A DNA stretch of 35,485 nt from Sorangium cellulosum (GTDB lineage: Bacteria; Myxococcota_A; Polyangia; Polyangiales; Polyangiaceae): positions 1 through 35,485 of the forward strand of contig NZ_JEMA01000197.1 of assembly GCF_001589285.1 (NCBI RefSeq), read 5' to 3'. Within the stretch, counting starts at the first letter, position 1; every line of letters begins with the position of its first letter. Below, piece after piece: positions 27,855-34,887 of the stretch. Both the position numbers and the translations under genes were made by a program. The notes beneath the pieces are model-generated. The model did not search any database, was not told where the DNA came from, and worked only from the letters and a program-made list of their open reading frames with translations.

Positions 27855-28517
27855 TCAGCCGAGGTGGATCTGCGCGCCGTCGAGCTTGACCAGCTCCTCG
27901 GCCGTCACGAGCGTGTTCTCGCCGCGCAGGCTCATGTTCTTCTTCGCCACGTAGTCGACGCGCTCCGCGCGGAGCTGCTCGATCTCCTCGACGAAGCGGT
28001 ACGCCCGCTTCACCCGCTGGACCACCCGCTCGACCGAGGCGTCGAACGCCGCCGCCTTCACCTTCGCCCTCTCGATCTCGGCCTGCACCGCCGTCCCGAG
28101 GTACGACAGGCTCTCCACGAAGACGCTGCCGAGGCGCGCGTTGACCTTCAGCTCCCCGGCCACCACCCCGACCTCCTTGCCGGACGCGAAGGTCACGCCC
28201 TCGGCGGCGCCGACAACGAACCGCCCGCTGGGCAGCTTCACGTGCAGATCCCCCTCGAGCACCACGCTGACGTCGCGCCCCTGGCGCTCCAGCACGGCGA
28301 GGATGTAAGCGCCGCGCGCGGGCAGCACCGCGACGAGCACCACGTCGTCCGTCTCGGGCTCGACCATGCAGCTCACAGCGCGGCGCGCCTCGAGCTCGGC
28401 AGCGCCGGAGGCCACGACGAACGCGCCGCCCGCCGCGCGCACAACGCGGCCGACCTCCTGGTAGGCGGCCTCGGGCTCGATCTGCCTCGCAACCTTCCTC
28501 GCAACGTTGTTTCGCAT
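27855..28517 (-). CDS. DUF3540 type VI secretion accessory protein
   Basis: This 220-aa protein has N-terminal beta strands (VVLVAVLPARGAYILAVLERQG), a central region of short beta repeats (LHVKLPSGRFVVGAAEGVTFASG, ELKVNARLGSVFVESLSYLG) resembling the needle part of the VgrG/gp5 fold, and a helical segment before GENTLVTAEELVKLDGAQIH. This matches DUF3540, encoded beside DUF4150 and DUF2169 genes. Two ATGs are adjacent (28520 and 28517); the second has the better distance to GGGAGG. It lies 18 bases after the pentapeptide gene stop. The exact role is unknown; an adaptor on the secretion spike is likely. Confidence 0.82.
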   Translation of the reverse strand: MRNNVARKVARQIEPEAAYQEVGRVVRAAGGAFVVASGAAELEARRAVSCMVEPETDDVVLVAVLPARGAYILAVLERQGRDVSVVLEGDLHVKLPSGRFVVGAAEGVTFASGKEVGVVAGELKVNARLGSVFVESLSYLGTAVQAEIERAKVKAAAFDASVERVVQRVKRAYRFVEEIEQLRAERVDYVAKKNMSLRGENTLVTAEELVKLDGAQIHLG

Positions 28518-28535
28518 CATGCCTCCCGCGCCGGC

Positions 28536-29600
28536 TCAGCCGGCCTTGCCTCGGAGCCTGTCCTGCCACGTCTCCGCCTCGGCGAGCCGCTCGTCATCGC
28601 CCAGCGCGAGCGCGCGGCTCGTGAAGACGGCGCGCTCGTCCCGCGTCCGGTGAAAGCGCGCCCGGAAGAGCGTGGCGCCCGTGAAATCCGCCCCCCGGAC
28701 GTCCGCGTGCGAGAAGTCGGCGTACGTGAGCTCTGCGCCAGGGAACCGGGCGCGCTCGCAGCGCGCGCGATGCCAGATGCTCTGATCGAGCGTCGCCCTC
28801 GACAGGTCGGCGCCCGCGAGCTCGGCGTCGACGAAGATCGCCTGTCGGAGCAGCGCGCCGCGCAGGCTCGCGTCCGTCAGGTTGGCCTCGACGAAGATCG
28901 CGTTCGCCGCCCTGGCCTCGTCGAGCCGAGCGCCGGTGAGGTTCGCGCCCTTGAAGCCGCACTGCGTGAGGTTCGCGCCGGCCAGGTTCGCCCCGGTGAG
29001 ATCCGCCTCGGTGAACTGGCTCAGCGTGAAGTCGAGCCCCGAGAGGTCCATCCCCGCGAACCGTCCGCCGATGAAGACGACGCTCCGGCAGCGCGCCCCG
29101 GCCAGCGCGACCGTCGTCATGTCCGCCTTGATCAGGTGCGTGAACTCCAGCCGAGCGCCCGAGAGATCGAGGTGCGCCACGTCCGCGTCGACGAGCACCG
29201 TGCGATCCAGGTTCGCACGCGCGAGCCTCGCGCCTGCAAGGCGAGCGTTCGCGAACGCGGCGATGATCAGATCCGCCTCCGAGAGATCGGCGCACGACAG
29301 GTCGGACTCGGCGACCTGCGCCGCCGCCCAGGTGCTGCGAGCCAGCTTCGCGCGGGCGAGCACGCACCGGTGCATCGCCACGTGGTGCAGGTTGGCGCCG
29401 GTCAGATCAGCCTCGGTGAAGTCGCACGCGGTGAGGATCGACTCCTTGAACGAGGCGCCCGCGAGCCGGGCCCCCTTGAAGCTCACCTGCTCGAAGAGCC
29501 CGCCGGAGAGATCGGCTCCGCCGAGGTCCTCCCCGTCGAGGCAGGCGCCGGCGACCGTCTCGCCGCCCTGGATCATCGCGATGAGCTCAGCCCTGTCCAC
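28536..29600 (-). CDS. Pentapeptide-repeat protein of the type VI module
   Basis: This is a 354-aa protein of nearly uninterrupted A(D/N)LxG-type pentapeptide repeats, for example GADLSGGLFEQVSFKGARLA and EADLTGANLAGANLTQCGF. They form a right-handed quadrilateral beta helix of about 60 coils' worth of repeats. The start is GTG, preceded by CGGAGGTCGC, and overlaps the upstream DUF2169 gene by 14 bases, so the two are coupled. Such proteins pair with DUF2169 genes in type VI clusters. The helix is probably a structural or adaptor element; gyrase-mimicking activity, known for some pentapeptide proteins, is not suggested by this context. Confidence 0.9.
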   Translation of the reverse strand: MDRAELIAMIQGGETVAGACLDGEDLGGADLSGGLFEQVSFKGARLAGASFKESILTACDFTEADLTGANLHHVAMHRCVLARAKLARSTWAAAQVAESDLSCADLSEADLIIAAFANARLAGARLARANLDRTVLVDADVAHLDLSGARLEFTHLIKADMTTVALAGARCRSVVFIGGRFAGMDLSGLDFTLSQFTEADLTGANLAGANLTQCGFKGANLTGARLDEARAANAIFVEANLTDASLRGALLRQAIFVDAELAGADLSRATLDQSIWHRARCERARFPGAELTYADFSHADVRGADFTGATLFRARFHRTRDERAVFTSRALALGDDERLAEAETWQDRLRGKAG

Positions 29601-32253
29601 GCGACCTCCGCGGCACGAACCGCACCTCGTCCATGTTCGCCTCGTCGAAGCGCGTCCGCTCGTCGCCGAACACCTTCGCGAGATCGGCGCGGAACAGGTT
29701 CGCCCGGGTGAAATCGGCGCCCATGAGCCTCGCCTTCTGGAGGACGCCCAGCATCAGATCGGCGCAGGTCAGATCGGCGTCCGACAGATCGGCGCGGATG
29801 AACCGCGCCTCCCTCGCCGCGATCCACGCCATCCGGGCGCCGCGCAGGTCGCAGTCGCTGAGATCGCTGCCGTTCATGCGCGCCTCGGTGAAGTCGGCGC
29901 CGGAGAGGCTCGCCCCCCGGAGGTTCGCGCCGCTCAGCGTGGCGCCGCGGAAGTCGGCGCCGTCGAACGCGCACTCCTTGACCATGCGCAGGTTCTCCGC
30001 GTGCGCGCCTCGGAACACGGCGCCTCGACCCTCCGAGGAGAAGAAGGCTGTCGAGATCAGCCGGGCGCCCGAGAGATCGACGCCCGCGAGCTTGCACTCG
30101 ATGAAGGTGGACCTGGAGAGATCCGCGCCCGCGAGCCTCGACCCGGCGAAGTCGACCCGGAGCAGCGTCAGCAGCTGCGCCAGGGCGTCGGAGAGGTCGT
30201 TGTCGCGCAGCGTGGCCTCGGAGAGATCCGCCAGGGTGAGCTCCGCGCCGCGAAACGACGCTCCCGTGAGATCCGCCTGGTAGAGCGCCGCGCCGGACAG
30301 GTCCGCGCCGGAGAGATCGGCGCCCCTGAGCTTCGCCAGACCCAGGTTCGCCTCTTCGAGCTTCGCGCCCCGGAGCGCGGCGCGGCAGAGGTCGGCGTGG
30401 GCGAGGACGGCCCGCTCGAGGTTGGCCTCCTGGAGGTCGGCGCCCGCGAGGCTCGCGCCCTCAAGCAGCGCGCCGGTGAGGATCGCGCCGCGGAGATCGA
30501 GGCCGGAGAGATCCGCGCCGGTCAGGTCGCGCCCGGCGAGCGAGCGCCCCGCGCGGTGGGCCTCGATCACCTCGTCGCGCAGGCGTCGCCCGGCCTCGCC
30601 GGCGAGCCTGCCGGCCGCGGGGCCGAAGTGCGCGGTGTGCCGGTACCCCTCCAGCACCTGCGCCTCCATCTGCGCGAGCCTGTGATCCAGCGCCGGATCC
30701 GCGAGCGTCGCCTCGAGCTCGGCGTTCGGGTAACCGGCGTTCGCGAGCAGCGTCGCGAGGTCTTCGAGCCGCTCGCGTTCGGCCTTCGCCGAGAACTTCG
30801 GCGGACCGGCGGCCTGCTTCATCGCCTCTTCCTGGAGCGCGTCGTGGTCCATCCCGGCCGCAGCGTACGCCGCGCGCGCCTCGGCTTCGGCCCTGGCCCG
30901 GCGGTCCTCCGCCTCGGCCCGCTCTCGCTCCGCGCGCGCCTCCAGCGCCTCGACGAAAGGCCCCAGATCCTCGATGTCGGGGAGGGCTTCCTCGACGGCG
31001 GGCTCGTCGGCCTGATCGAGGCCGAACTGCGCCGGGTCGAGCCCGAGCTCCACGACCGTCGCGCGCGCCTGCCGGCGGTTCGCCTCCGCCCTGCGCCGCG
31101 CGCCGCCCTGCATGTTCTTCCGGAGGAGATCGTCGCTCGCCAGGAGCCGCTCGACATCGGACACGTCGCGCGGCGGCCGCGCTCCCGAGGGGAGCAGCGG
31201 CAGGAGATCGCTCTCGCGCAGCGCGGCCAGGTGCCCTGCTTTCGGGTCGAGGCGCCGCGCCAGCACGTCGCGGTAGTGCTCCACCGGCCTGGGCTCGCCG
31301 AGCGCCTCTGCGCCGATCACGATGTGCAGCACGTCGGCTGCGTCGTCCTCGTCGACGAGCGCGATGCCCCGGAAGAGGAGGACCCCACGCTCGGCGTGCG
31401 GAAAGAGGTGCACTGTCTCGAGGCGCATCGGCACCTCGCTGAAGCTCTCCCCGTCTCCGTCCTTCCGGTTGATGAACGCGCGCGCCGCGATCCCCGGCAA
31501 CGCCGCCTCGATCAAGGGCCTCTCCGGGTGCATGTTCTCCAGCACCATCGGCTCGTCGCCGCGGAAGAACCCCTGGATCTGTTGATCTTCGGGAGCAGCG
31601 TTGAACATGCCGAGATCCGTGTCCTCGGCGAAGCCCGGGAACCGTTCCTTGAGCCATTTGTGGTCGTAGGTGCCCATCCTGGCGAAGCGCTGCGGCCACA
31701 TGATGTCGATGGGCCCGAAGCCCGCCGGCGCAGGCTGATCGGTCGGCGACGTGATCAGCGCCCCCGGCAGCTCGATGTTCGGGAGCGGGTGGAGCTCTCC
31801 CGCGTCGGTCTCCACCGGCTGGGCGCCCTTGCCGACGGGGTTCATCGCGAACCCCGGCCCGCCGAAGGCGCGCTCCCAGACGATCGGCATCTCGGTGAAC
31901 GGCTCGGGCTCGGTGGGCACGCCGCGCCGCCAGGTCCGATCGCCGATGGCGTAGAGCGTCTTGTCCACCGCGCCGAGCCGCGCCCGCACAGCGCACGCCG
32001 GCGCCCGCCCCCCGCGAGGGCAAGCCCGCCCGGAGATCAGGAGCTCTCCCCTGGGCTTGGGCATTCCCATGTCGAGCACGGCGTCCTTGCCGAGCTCGGC
32101 CGCGACGAACTTCCAGAGATCGATCTCCGAGAGGAGGGCTGCCGGCGGACCCAGCGAGAAGAAGGCGAAGATCGTGACCGATAGATAGCAGTCGCTGCCG
32201 TCCTCGAAGGCCCGGTGGAGGAGGCCGAGCTTCTGGGGTTTGATCGTCTTCAT
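29587..32253 (-). CDS. DUF2169 protein fused to a pentapeptide-repeat domain
   Basis: This is an 888-aa protein. The N-terminal DUF2169 domain (about 10-310) includes KTLYAIGDRTWR, PIVWERAFGGPGFAMNPVGKG, PLPNIELP, and WPQRFARMGTYDHKWLKERF. A charged helical segment rich in Glu/Arg/Ala follows (about 390-560) and may be coiled coil. The C-terminal third (about 590-880) is pentapeptide repeats (LTGADLSGLDLRGAILTGAL). DUF2169 genes precede secreted effectors and PAAR-like genes in type VI loci and are thought to help load cargo. The ATG at 32253 gives the family N-terminus MKTIKPQKLG; no good ribosome site is seen. It is the first gene of the module, 182 bp after the Ro60-like gene. Confidence 0.9.
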   Translation of the reverse strand: MKTIKPQKLGLLHRAFEDGSDCYLSVTIFAFFSLGPPAALLSEIDLWKFVAAELGKDAVLDMGMPKPRGELLISGRACPRGGRAPACAVRARLGAVDKTLYAIGDRTWRRGVPTEPEPFTEMPIVWERAFGGPGFAMNPVGKGAQPVETDAGELHPLPNIELPGALITSPTDQPAPAGFGPIDIMWPQRFARMGTYDHKWLKERFPGFAEDTDLGMFNAAPEDQQIQGFFRGDEPMVLENMHPERPLIEAALPGIAARAFINRKDGDGESFSEVPMRLETVHLFPHAERGVLLFRGIALVDEDDAADVLHIVIGAEALGEPRPVEHYRDVLARRLDPKAGHLAALRESDLLPLLPSGARPPRDVSDVERLLASDDLLRKNMQGGARRRAEANRRQARATVVELGLDPAQFGLDQADEPAVEEALPDIEDLGPFVEALEARAERERAEAEDRRARAEAEARAAYAAAGMDHDALQEEAMKQAAGPPKFSAKAERERLEDLATLLANAGYPNAELEATLADPALDHRLAQMEAQVLEGYRHTAHFGPAAGRLAGEAGRRLRDEVIEAHRAGRSLAGRDLTGADLSGLDLRGAILTGALLEGASLAGADLQEANLERAVLAHADLCRAALRGAKLEEANLGLAKLRGADLSGADLSGAALYQADLTGASFRGAELTLADLSEATLRDNDLSDALAQLLTLLRVDFAGSRLAGADLSRSTFIECKLAGVDLSGARLISTAFFSSEGRGAVFRGAHAENLRMVKECAFDGADFRGATLSGANLRGASLSGADFTEARMNGSDLSDCDLRGARMAWIAAREARFIRADLSDADLTCADLMLGVLQKARLMGADFTRANLFRADLAKVFGDERTRFDEANMDEVRFVPRRSRGQG

Positions 32254-32435
32254 GGGCAGGGGTGGCGCGCCGCCGGAGAGCTGGCCCACGGCCCCGGCGC
32301 GGATGGGTTGCGAGGCCGCCGGGCTGGCTGTGGATCGTTGTCGCTGCGGGCCACGCCGCGGCGCCACTGTCATCGAGCCGCTCGCGTCCGTCAATGCGGC
32401 GGCCAGGAATCCGGCGGGATTTCTGGGGCGCTCCG
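32254..32435 (-). other. Gap between the Ro60-like gene and the type VI module
   Basis: It probably holds the module's promoter. TTGACG (minus strand, 32394-32389) is a possible -35 with a poor -10 (GACAGT) 17 bases on. No terminator hairpin with a T-run is visible after the Ro60-like gene. Confidence 0.25.
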
Positions 32436-34034
32436 CTACTCCTGTGCCATGGCCGCGGCGAAGCGCAGGAGCCCCTCGCCCCAGCCGCCGAGGATGTACG
32501 TGCGATCGTAGAACTCGGGCATGAGCGTGTCCTTGTATCCGGCGACCTGCACCAGGAACACCCGCACGTCGCTGTGCACGCGCGCGCGGTACCTCGCGAC
32601 GAGCTTTGCCACGTCGATGTACTGCTCGTTCCAGGCGAACTCCGCGTAGTCCTTCGGGCGCGAGCCGTAGAGGCCGCCGTGTCCTGCCTGCATGTCGCTC
32701 AGCACGAACACAGCGTCCCATCGCTGCCGCTCGCGGATGGCGCGATCCCAGAACAGCCACACGCCGTTCTCGGTCGCCGTGCCGATCGTGCGGGCGATCT
32801 GCTCCGCCCGGTCGACAGCCGAGAACACGCTCTCCTTCCGGCGCACGGCGAAGGTCTCCAGCCGGTCGCCGAACACGCCGAGGTGCCCCTCCTCCGCGCG
32901 CATCCCGGCCACGACCCCGGTGAGGTTCGCGATCGTGGAGACGCGCATGGTCCCGAGGCTGCTCGTCGTCGTGCTCTGCGCGGAGCCGCTGTTGTCACAG
33001 AGCACCATCACCCGGCCAGGGAAGTGCGGCACCTGGCCGAGGGAGCGGTGCAGGCACTGCTCCACGGCGTCCAGCACGGCGCCCGGCGCGCGGTCCTTCA
33101 CCGCGCAGTAGGCGCTGTAGTACCGGAAGGGGAGCTGCTTGCCCTCCGCCGCCGTCGCGACGAGCTTCGGCAGGAACACGTCGTGCGGCACGCCCGCGTC
33201 CAGCAGGTTGCGCAGGTTGCGCAGCAGGGCCATGTGGCCCATGACCGGCAGCGCCTTGCGCCACGCGCAGCGGTTCGAGCCGCGCGACGAGACGATCGCC
33301 TCCCAGGTGCGGCCGGTCGCGCGGAGCGCGCCCTTCGCGAGGCGGTCCACGCTGGGGCTCTTCGGGTGCACGAGGTTCACGACGTCCACTGTCTTGCTCC
33401 CCTTGCCCTCGAGTCGGTACTTCGCGAGGGCGTGATCGTCGAAGCGCTCGAGCGCGTCGCGGAGCGCGCGCTTCAGCGCGTTGGGCACCGGCTTGCCGAA
33501 CCGGTAGAGCTGGTACGCGAGCGCGACCGCCGGCTCGTCCGCGCGCTGGAGGACGCGCGGCGCGTAGCGGCGCACGAGGCCCGTCCCGCGCACGGACGCT
33601 GTGTTCGCCGCGCGCACCAGGATGACCTGGGGCGTCGTGCGCAGGTGCTCCTCCTCGCGCAGCCGCGCGGCCTCGGCGAGCGTCGCCTCCGGATCGGCCG
33701 CGAGCGCGTCGTCGATGGCCTTCTCGATCAGCGCGGCCGGCGAGAGCGCGCGCCACTCGGCCGGGTCGACGGCGCCGAGCGTCTCGCGCAGGCGCTTCAC
33801 GTCGGCGTCGGAGAGCCGCGCGCGATCGGCGGGGTGCTTCCTCTTCGCCTTCGCCGGGCGCGGGTCCGCCGCGTCGCGGTGGTAGTACATCGGCTCGCCG
33901 AAGAAGCACGACGAGGCCGCGAGGCGGAGGCGCTTCAGCGGATCGGCGATGTCGTAGGAGCGCCCGCCCATCCAGTTCATGTGCGACGCGCTGTCGTGCT
34001 TGGCCTTGCGCTTGAGCTGCTGAAAGAACGCCAT
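32436..34034 (-). CDS. rsr: Ro60/Rsr orthologue (TROVE domain RNA-binding protein)
   Basis: This 532-aa protein has the Ro60 layout. The TROVE helical-repeat ring (about 1-330) includes MNWMGGRSYDIADPLKRLRL, FFGEPMYYHRD, LPVMGHMALLRNLRNLL and KQLPFRYYSAY. A VWA domain (about 335-532) has an intact MIDAS DNSGS in VMVLCDNSGSAQS and VFVLSDMQAGHGG. Ro60 proteins form a ring that binds misfolded RNA in the cavity and Y RNAs on the rim. In bacteria Rsr works with exonucleases and, in enterobacteria, sits with RNA ligase genes rtcBA; those genes are not in this window. The ATG at 34034 follows AAGGAGGTGTCATC, so the longer frame to 34109 is rejected. Two structured RNAs lie just upstream on the same strand. 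Confidence 0.93.
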   Translation of the reverse strand: MAFFQQLKRKAKHDSASHMNWMGGRSYDIADPLKRLRLAASSCFFGEPMYYHRDAADPRPAKAKRKHPADRARLSDADVKRLRETLGAVDPAEWRALSPAALIEKAIDDALAADPEATLAEAARLREEEHLRTTPQVILVRAANTASVRGTGLVRRYAPRVLQRADEPAVALAYQLYRFGKPVPNALKRALRDALERFDDHALAKYRLEGKGSKTVDVVNLVHPKSPSVDRLAKGALRATGRTWEAIVSSRGSNRCAWRKALPVMGHMALLRNLRNLLDAGVPHDVFLPKLVATAAEGKQLPFRYYSAYCAVKDRAPGAVLDAVEQCLHRSLGQVPHFPGRVMVLCDNSGSAQSTTTSSLGTMRVSTIANLTGVVAGMRAEEGHLGVFGDRLETFAVRRKESVFSAVDRAEQIARTIGTATENGVWLFWDRAIRERQRWDAVFVLSDMQAGHGGLYGSRPKDYAEFAWNEQYIDVAKLVARYRARVHSDVRVFLVQVAGYKDTLMPEFYDRTYILGGWGEGLLRFAAAMAQE

Positions 34035-34080
34035 GATGACACCTCCTTCCTCGACGCACGCGCGGCGAGGGGTCGAGAAG

Positions 34081-34166
34081 AAGGGCGCAGCGCGGAGGAT
34101 GGTGGTCACGGGGGTTGTCGTATCGGAACGAAGGAACCGTGACGCTCACTGCCGCGCTGCGCCCTT
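34081..34166 (-). ncRNA. Putative Y RNA: long stem with shared internal loop, upstream of rsr
   Basis: Reading the minus strand, AAGGGCGCAGCGCGG (34166-34152) pairs perfectly with CCGCGCTGCGCCCTT (34095-34081), a 15-bp closing stem. Next come an internal loop CAGTGAGC (34151-34144) opposite CACCATCCT (34104-34096), an inner 7-bp stem GTCACGG/CCGTGAC (34143-34137 with 34111-34105), and a 25-nt pyrimidine-rich apical loop. Closing stem, asymmetric internal loop, upper stem and large loop is the architecture of Y RNAs. It starts one base after the tRNA-like RNA's discriminator and ends about 33 bases before the rsr ribosome site. The same CAGTGAGC strand recurs in the tRNA-like RNA. It could instead be a leader structure of rsr; the two are not exclusive. 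Confidence 0.7.
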
Positions 34167-34167
34167 G

Positions 34168-34301
34168 TGCCAGAGGCGGGACTCGAACCCGCGACCTCGT
34201 CCTGAGAAGGGAAGTAACCCCGGAGCTCACTGCCGGCGCTCATCGCGCCGGAGAACACCGTCCGGAGTTGTTTCGTGCTCTGACCGCTGAGCTACTCTGG
34301 C
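34168..34301 (-). ncRNA. tRNA-like RNA with Y-RNA-like arm in place of the anticodon arm (YrlA-like)
   Basis: The acceptor stem GCCAGAG (34301-34295) / CTCTGGC (34175-34169) pairs perfectly, with discriminator A at 34168. TA, then D arm GCTC-AGCGGTCA-GAGC (34292-34277), is canonical and keeps the GG of the D loop. AGGTC (34197-34193) and T arm GCGGG-TTCGAGT-CCCGC (34192-34176) are canonical too. No normal anticodon arm exists. Instead AACTCCGGA/TCCGGGGTT (34269-34261 with 34224-34216; 9 bp, one G-U) leads to an internal loop CGGTGTTCT (34260-34252) / CAGTGAGC (34232-34225), then CCGGCGC/GCGCCGG (34251-34245 with 34239-34233) closed by GATGA. About 20 unpaired bases precede AGGTC. No CCA is encoded. 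At 134 nt it is not a usable elongator tRNA. Next to rsr, the best reading is a tRNA-mimicking Y RNA. Confidence 0.75.
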
Positions 34302-34319: not shown

Positions 34320-34335
34320 TGCAGGGAGGATGCCA
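34320..34335 (-). promoter_or_regulatory. Sigma-54-like promoter upstream of the tRNA-like RNA
   Basis: TGGCATCCTCCCTGCA on the minus strand matches TGGCAC-N5-TTGCA with two mismatches and correct GG-N10-GC spacing. Transcription would start about 8 bases before the tRNA-like acceptor stem. In enterobacteria the rsr-yrl-rtcBA RNA-repair operon is sigma-54 dependent under RtcR, which makes the match more credible; no RtcR gene is visible here. Confidence 0.5.
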
Positions 34336-34597
34336 GGCGGCCTCGGGCGGGGTTTTCCGGGGGGGCCGCGTGGAACGCGGGTGGAGGCTCGGGGCGGCCT
34401 ATCCCGGAGGATAAATGCTTAGACGGAGCGATAGAGGCGGAGCGCGTCGCCGCGGGGCGGGGGCGAGCTGCGGCTGGCTGCGCTCCCGCCGCCCGGCCGG
34501 CGGCACGCGGTGAGGCCCTGGGGCAGGGCGTACAGGGGCGCACGGCCGGGGGCGGGGACGGCGCGGCACCGGGCGGATGGCCCGATGGGGGCCGGGA

Positions 34598-34774
34598 GGT
34601 CGCGACCGTGGCCGGCGCTCGTGACGAGCGCGCGCGGAGGTCGCGACCTATCGGATCGCATGATTTCGACGGATCGGAGAGGTCGCGACCAAACGCTCCG
34701 CATGATTTCGACGGAATGGACCGGTCGCGACCTATCGCACTGCATGATTTCGACGGATCGGAGAGGTCGGGACG
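34598..34774. repeat. 42-bp tandem repeats with GGTCGCGACC palindrome
   Basis: The palindrome GGTCGCGACC occurs at 34598, 34639, 34681 and 34723, with a decayed copy (GGTCGGGACG) at 34765. The last four are spaced exactly 42 bases apart. Between them a conserved GCATGATTTCGACGGA is present in all three complete units, while the flanking 6-9 bases vary. The first palindrome is followed by unrelated sequence. No cas genes or variable spacers exist, so this is not a CRISPR array; it is a tandem or dispersed intergenic repeat, possibly protein-binding. Confidence 0.85.
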
Positions 34775-34887
34775 TGGGCGGGGCTGTGAAACGAGGGAGC
34801 GGGTTGGTCGTGGCTTCCCCGGCGATTGCGGGCCGAGGGGGGGCGAGGTCGGGATCGTTGTCGAGCCTGCTGTGTGCGCCGCCGGGC

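Follow-up and report, generated by a model that had tools for sequence, protein, structure and literature searches.

Layout and fold of the RNA pair

The window analysed here, a stretch of 35,485 nucleotides (nt) from Sorangium cellulosum (contig NZ_JEMA01000197.1, positions 1 to 35,485), carries on its minus strand two small RNA candidates followed by a gene for a TROVE/Ro60-like protein. The first (34168..34301), a transfer RNA (tRNA) with acceptor, D, anticodon and T arms and discriminator A into which a Y-type hairpin appears to be inserted, is here called the tY RNA. The second (34081..34166), a free-ended Y-like RNA of 86 nt separated from the first by one base, is called RNA2, and the gene (32436..34034, 532 amino acids, ATG at 34034) is called winT. 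These names were coined in this analysis and the tRNA numbering is our own assignment. A sigma-54-type promoter-like site, CTGGCATCCTCCCTGCA (34320..34336, minus strand), precedes the tY RNA. On sequence grounds the initial annotation, which placed a tRNA-like RNA bearing a Y-type hairpin at 34301-34168 next to a Ro60-like gene, appears largely right.

The Rfam tRNA model scores the 134-nt tY RNA at 48.2 bits against a gathering score of 29, and the perfect acceptor, D and T arms originally described are borne out, with 7/7 acceptor pairs, 4/4 in the D arm (34277..34292) and 5/5 in the T arm (GCGGG-UUCGAGU-CCCGC, 34176..34192). The minimum free energy (MFE) structure, at -64.2 kcal/mol (z -3.3; 2 of 200 shuffles as stable), includes the two-helix arm. 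This arm, the Y hairpin (34216..34269), is comprised of a proximal stem AACUCCGG/CCGGGGUU, an internal loop and a distal stem closed by GAUGA. The claim that it stands instead of an anticodon arm did not hold, for an arm of 5 bp with a 7-nt loop is retained and the Y hairpin sits beside it. Within this stem C27 G28 (34275-34274) pair with C42 G43, and U29 C30 C31 with G39 G40 A41 around the loop CUUCUCA, nt 29-43 occupying 34198..34212, a segment flanked by the Y arm and by the variable region AGGUC. Because an anticodon arm with standard tRNA geometry persists, the Y hairpin can be placed as a 61-nt insert that separates nt 28 from nt 29 in an otherwise complete tRNA. With this insert the window RNA lacks the uninterrupted anticodon stem that follows the D arm in a functional tRNA. 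ARAGORN makes no tRNA call anywhere in the window; in an Rfam scan of the window tRNA is the sole family over cut-off and the YrlA model reports nothing.

RNA2 folds into a 15-bp closing stem, an internal loop and an upper stem (z -7.4, 0 of 200 shuffles as stable), in agreement with the earlier description of an 86-nt RNA with such a closing stem one base past the first. Both RNAs contain strands of a putative Rsr-binding internal-loop motif. In the tY RNA these are GUUCUC on the 5' side (34251..34256) and GCAGUGAG on the 3' side (34226..34233); RNA2 has GCAGUGAG on the 5' side (34152-34145) and AUCCUCC on the 3' side (34100-34094).

The product of winT, on the same strand as both RNAs as first reported, contains the TROVE domain PF05731 (36.3 bits, cut-off 23). 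Its closest solved chains, 9l5y and 9kop, at 71 bits, are named only as TROVE domain-containing proteins. A canonical paralogue in the same genome matches the Rsr structure 2nvo at 408.9 bits. The NCBIfam Rsr equivalog NF041674 gives no match for winT and 558 bits for the canonical paralogue, below its cut-off of 900, and PADLOC returned nothing for the three TROVE proteins tried.

Covariation, the anticodon arm and the order of parts

Both RNAs are kept in the window and seven relatives. In these eight sequences RNAalifold predicts 38 pairs for the tY RNA, 11 with both-sided compensatory changes, such changes occurring in both the proximal and the distal stem of the Y hairpin, and 18 pairs for RNA2, three with both-sided changes. 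Conserved with compensatory changes, the RNA pair is not a chance occurrence. A covariance model, R1, was built from seven RNAs; it leaves the proximal Y stem unpaired because MAFFT misaligned that stem. Forty-seven tY RNAs from 80 named TROVE loci, aligned by fitting to R1 and including L106, a model seed under another name, have 96.5% of cells paired (74.1% in shuffles) and a covariation of 0.628 (0.178 in shuffles, at most 0.150 in slid registers). Both-sided change is seen at 21 of their 25 pairs, so that the helix covariation that was to be sought around TROVE genes with a covariance model is present. In the proximal Y stem of 60 tY RNAs 346 of 360 positions are paired, against at most 310 in 300 permutations. 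A decayed tRNA pseudogene with an incidental hairpin would suit the lack of an ARAGORN call and an anticodon identity that is not conserved across the class, but it is already contradicted by the covariation, and the TROVE linkage and conserved motif described below also speak against it; we give it next to no credence.

Pairing in the anticodon arm was assessed in 88 tY RNAs. A descriptor gave 111 distinct matches, of which an ARAGORN filter removed 28; tandem pairs of ordinary tRNAs mimicked long descriptor matches. Seven of the 28, all R1 matches over 60 bits, were restored by hand as tY-like and two implausible matches were removed by hand. Four doubtful members (L033, L134, L158 and L163:2437) were kept, and the pairing counts are lowered thereby; L033 is probably a scan across a YrlA-type RNA, and its locus holds such RNAs. 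A variable region of 5 nt with a loop of 7 nt is the standard tRNA geometry, and of 42 combinations of variable-region and loop length only this one stands out. It gives 5/5 pairs in 40 of the 88 RNAs and at least 4/5 in 60, the best other registers reaching 9 and 37, respectively. In total 333 of 440 anticodon-stem pairs form, compared to at most 223 in 2000 between-sequence permutations, a comparison that ignores relatedness. Among the 60 RNAs with at least 4/5 pairs, U33 is present in 54 and a purine at position 37 in 48. The anticodons vary widely.

Deletion of the insert leaves a complete tRNA and this, together with the U33 and purine-37 frequencies and the presence of RtcB in all 12 winT genomes, would fit an interrupted tRNA gene from which the Y-like hairpin is excised as an intron, perhaps with the help of RtcB, so that a functional tRNA results. 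The wide variation of anticodons argues against this, as does the occurrence of the insert motif in free-ended RNAs that are not tRNAs. YrlA-type RNAs, moreover, hold the same parts permuted, and removal of the Y part there would give no tRNA. Ordinary tRNA-Arg genes with CCU and UCU anticodons are present in So0157-2, and the tY RNA is therefore not needed for those codons. An intron of this kind is improbable in our view.

Several other candidates were set aside. A group I or other long intron is unsuited to inserts mostly of 42-71 nt (extremes 32 and 131). A general arginine identity was rejected, UCU or CCU being found in the eight aligned tY RNAs and other loops, read by eye, in Polyangium. 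The 113-nt tRNA match at L010:2582-2694 proved to be a tRNA-Tyr lengthened by an assembly duplication that spans an N. Separately, five tY-like RNAs, at L110:3252, L129:2824, L152:6714, L157:3445 and L161:1789, were noticed to reach 163-202 nt through a greatly expanded insert.

In the Rfam YrlA family (RF02553) the order is T arm, closed acceptor hairpin and D arm, with the ends in the Y stem. The window RNA runs acceptor, D, anticodon, T, acceptor; its acceptor is open and its Y stem closed by GAUGA, the opposite of YrlA, and the circular permutation noted in the initial annotation was confirmed in this respect. According to available passages of one structural report, the Y RNA whose structure was solved is circularly permuted relative to tRNA (PMC11472068). 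A true permutation is indicated because the same putative Rsr motif occurs in opposite order in the tY RNA and RNA2, and because YrlA-type RNAs of Myxococcota retain the anticodon arm with the T arm before the D arm. A full arm, with 5/5 pairs and a 7-nt loop, was found in this arrangement in five of eight such RNAs when a variable region of 4 or 5 was allowed. The RNAs of L235 and L236 were added only in a wider count, in which the standard register fits seven of ten candidates and other registers at most two. On reading of the letters L235 consists of two tandem tRNA-Phe genes and was rejected as a YrlA-type RNA; without it the standard register fits six of nine. The YrlA-type RNAs of L032, L229, L232 and L243 lie near TROVE genes weakly similar to canonical Rsr. 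In none of the 80 named TROVE genomes, and in one of 356 from Myxococcota, does RF02553 reach its Rfam cut-off, so this family hardly covers these loci. Weaker matches, some of which may be true YrlA, occur in 35 of the 80 genomes and 6 of 14 controls; the window's own genome gives no match at E 1e-6. Taken together, the letters and models support the core proposal of a Y RNA pair beside an Rsr-type gene in which the tRNA mimic is permuted relative to YrlA.

Distribution, hairpin motifs and promoter

A TROVE-independent scan of 377 Myxococcota genomes with model R1 gave matches of tRNA size or longer in every genome. By hand count at least 35 matches over 100 nt, among the matches listed, occur in 20 genomes, and 7 of these 35 are model seeds. 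A TROVE gene is present in 19 of the 20 genomes, again among the matches listed, compared to 22 of 282 genomes overall, and 34 tY genes of those 19 genomes, among the matches listed, lie within 8 kb of TROVE by coordinates. The exception, G366, has its tY RNA 473 bases from a contig end. The 80 named TROVE loci (L097-L176), drawn from one scan, contain 51 R1 matches (at least 60 bits, over 100 nt) in 40 loci, on the TROVE strand. All 51 lie no more than 2.5 kb from TROVE, 26 on its upstream and 25 on its downstream side, with most TROVE ends in this count approximated. Location beside a Ro60/Rsr-type gene, as expected of bacterial Y RNAs, is therefore seen both at the window and in 40 of the 80 named loci. 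Record titles of loci with tY RNAs include Myxococcota, Chloroflexi, Gemmatimonadetes, Armatimonadota, Brocadia, Thiotrichaceae, Desulfonema and Cyanobacteria; the named loci are mostly metagenome-assembled genomes, in which mis-binning is possible. The earlier notion of a myxobacterial Y RNA pair stands as to the pair beside an Rsr-type gene and falls as to its restriction to myxobacteria, beyond which the class extends.

Relatives of winT are present in 19 of 183 genomes of the order. A tY RNA lies near winT in 11 of the 19, made up of eight loci including the window and three Polyangium-like genomes in which the distance is 5-8 kb.

GUUCUC and GCAGUGAG are invariant across the eight aligned tY RNAs, and the motif is kept in the eight aligned loci with small changes in RNA2, its 3' strand there being GUUCUC in L084-L086. 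The arrangement of a tY RNA followed by RNA2 recurs in Polyangium. At one Polyangium locus (L248:127-2874) three tY RNAs were seen, two followed by RNAs of the RNA2 type, with a further RNA2 directly before winT. The RNA2-type motif GGCAGTGA precedes winT in six of six loci of the genus labelled g189.

Across the 88 tY RNAs a GGGCCGN-like strand is found in 73 and a CUUGUCC-like strand in 67. The two occur as a pair in the expected order in 54 of the 88, against a mean of 1.7 in shuffles. The GUUCUC/GCAGUGAG pair is found in seven, which are the Sorangium and g20 winT loci, and a pattern search recovered neither pair in the expected order in 27. Most of the 88 adjoin a canonical-type Rsr. Both TROVE types are found in Sorangium and Polyangium genomes, and where these were read the motif matches the neighbouring protein, a pairing that suggests cognate recognition of the hairpin by each TROVE paralogue. 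CUUGUCC/GGGCCGAAG presumably resembles the stems of animal Y RNAs.

The sigma-54-like -24/-12 site begins 35 nt ahead of the tY RNA in the window and agrees with 12 of 13 consensus positions, its GG and GC being 12 nt apart. It is the sole site on both strands of the window scoring at least 12/13 with GG and GC in place, and it is conserved in five of five same-genus loci. A site scoring at least 11 precedes 11 of the 13 tY RNAs of the winT family; with mononucleotide shuffles as control, 0 to 5% reached the score in these 11 cases. RtcR is encoded in all 12 winT genomes compared to 1 of 14 controls. As judged by matches, then, the tY RNA combines a sigma-54-like promoter with RtcR in the genome, the pairing expected of a member of an RtcR/sigma-54 regulon, and control by sigma-54 and RtcR is likely. 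In three of four genomes of genus g189 rtcB, rtcR, tY RNAs and winT lie within 15.4 (G370), 18.8 (G339) and 18.0 kb (G368); G370 has the same tY sequence as a Polyangium record (L101), genus names being assigned by inference. The tY RNA probably belongs with RNA-repair genes.

The anticodon loop, retained with U33, could also serve as bait in an anticodon-nuclease decoy or sensor, with Rsr protecting the RNA or handing it on. The RtcR link lends this some weight, as do the tRNA arrays in which Rsr genes are found together with HNH and RtcB-like genes. No nuclease is seen cutting the tY RNA, however, the anticodons are not fixed, and the Rfam YrlA consensus has no anticodon arm; a decoy or sensor seems rather unlikely.

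Arrays of accessory tRNA genes often surround canonical Rsr loci, with 636 ARAGORN calls in the 663 kb of L097-L176. At least three ARAGORN tRNAs are called in 48 of the 80 loci and at least six in 35, counts that are upper bounds because ARAGORN makes false calls inside tY RNAs. An HNH-type relative occurs in 32 of the 80 loci and an RtcB-like protein in 16 (cluster names are ours), and the HNH type was confirmed by Pfam in the tRNA array of the window's own genome. According to available passages, tRNA arrays with HNH genes occur in mycobacteria (PMC5966550). At L009:1-4701 in the window's own genome, the canonical Rsr paralogue lies within a tRNA cluster and is accompanied by a tY RNA (1601-1482, minus strand) and a candidate free-ended Y RNA (about 3486-3418, minus strand). 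Elsewhere in the window, near-identical repeats with GGTCGCGACC and CATGATTTCGACGG lie upstream of the tY promoter at 34600-34790, and genes for a DUF2169-pentapeptide protein, a pentapeptide protein and a DUF3540 protein lie downstream of winT at 27855-32757.

Proposed function and comparison with known Y RNAs

We consider it probable that the locus is a sigma-54-driven unit of a tY RNA, a free-ended Y RNA and an Rsr-type TROVE protein, in which the hairpin is for Rsr and the tRNA body for a partner. Transcription from the sigma-54 promoter would give the tY RNA, then the free-ended Y RNA, then the Rsr-type protein. The Rsr ring would be expected on the internal loop of the hairpin, i.e. GUUCUC/GCAGUGAG here and CUUGUCC/GGGCCGA-like strands beside canonical Rsr, leaving the tRNA body free for a tRNA-handling partner, which may be a repair enzyme, a nuclease acting on tRNA, or polynucleotide phosphorylase (PNPase), the partner already described in the RYPER complex. 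Both YrlA (PMC8394870) and DrY (PMC4726728) are reported, in the passages available, to tether PNPase. Because the acceptor is open, the ends of the tY RNA are predicted from tRNA processing, namely RNase P, 3' trimming and CCA addition, and the same processing would free RNA2, one base downstream. Control by RtcR would place the locus in the RNA-repair response.

A number of points weigh against this reading. The MFE structure of the window RNA lacks the pairs between nt 27-28 and 42-43, and the full proposed fold has -52.8 as against -64.2 kcal/mol. Fewer than 4/5 anticodon-stem pairs form in 28 of the 88 tY RNAs, and only 2/5 in the second tY RNA of the same genome. The register was, in addition, first spotted by eye within part of the same 88 RNAs in which it was later tested. 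Three of the eight YrlA-type RNAs are without the arm, including L032a, the sole one over the Rfam cut-off. The winT protein is divergent, Pfam aligning only residues 267-333 of the scanned open reading frame, and a search with it did not recover Rsr 2nvo at E up to 1. No tY match over 60 bits was found in 40 of the 80 TROVE loci, no tY RNA within about 1.5 kb of winT in six g189 loci (L078-L083), and none in the examined flanks of five distant winT relatives (L087-L091). Two of the 13 winT-family tY RNAs have no sigma-54 site, although both look like downstream cluster members. The RtcR comparison set winT genomes against 14 controls rather than against relatives without winT, and RtcB is also present in 9 of the 14 controls. 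G292, the remaining g189 genome, has rtcR on one contig and winT on another; in the Sorangium genomes RtcR is encoded far from the locus or on another contig.

As a more tentative extension, and one we hold to be doubtful, tY RNAs may be mature CCA-ended tRNAs wearing a Ro60 ring on the anticodon stem, tRNA-Y fusions of wide distribution, possible ancestors of YrlA by permutation and RtcR-controlled baits or sensors of tRNA damage, with a hairpin code for each Ro60 paralogue. If the main reading holds, tRNAs and bacterial Y RNAs would be linked structurally, through one set of parts that occurs in two circular orders in a single phylum and retains the anticodon arm. Some Y RNAs would be made by the tRNA-processing pathway, and the two orders would offer a natural test of which Y RNA end matters for Ro60 function. 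The tie to an RNA-repair regulon would also suggest an inducing stress that could be tried. Genes of this kind readily escape notice, ARAGORN being silent in the window and the Rfam YrlA model giving no report.

Compared with known systems, the tY RNA would be a novel form of bacterial Y RNA that mimics tRNA with the parts joined in a different order. Among the titles and passages searched no account of a tRNA-order Y RNA was found, though an earlier description may exist.

RNA2 probably resembles the free-ended bacterial Y RNAs of the YrlB/DrY type in layout, as its ends lie in the stem that adjoins the putative motif; RNAs of this type differ from the tY RNA in having no tRNA domain.

The available passages on Salmonella describe an RNA-repair operon with RtcR, Rsr and Y RNAs (PMC7790460). 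As far as these passages go, the rsr-yrlBA-rtcBA operon has in common with the present loci an Rsr-type protein, Y RNAs, RtcB, RtcR and a sigma-54 promoter; it differs in that the window Y RNA is in tRNA order and that rtcB and rtcR lie elsewhere in Sorangium genomes.

YrlA (RF02553; PDB 6CU1) shares with the tY RNA a Y stem and tRNA-like D and T arms beside Rsr, whereas its acceptor is closed, its Y stem open and an anticodon arm absent from the Rfam consensus, the tY RNA being the opposite in all three. The YrlA-type RNAs of Myxococcota (L032, L229-L232, L243) also differ from the tY RNA in the T arm before the D arm and in the hairpin-closed acceptor, yet in five of eight the Y stem stands at the same 28/29 site, and the YrlA junction CUA and D-arm flank ACGUA are recognisable in L032b.

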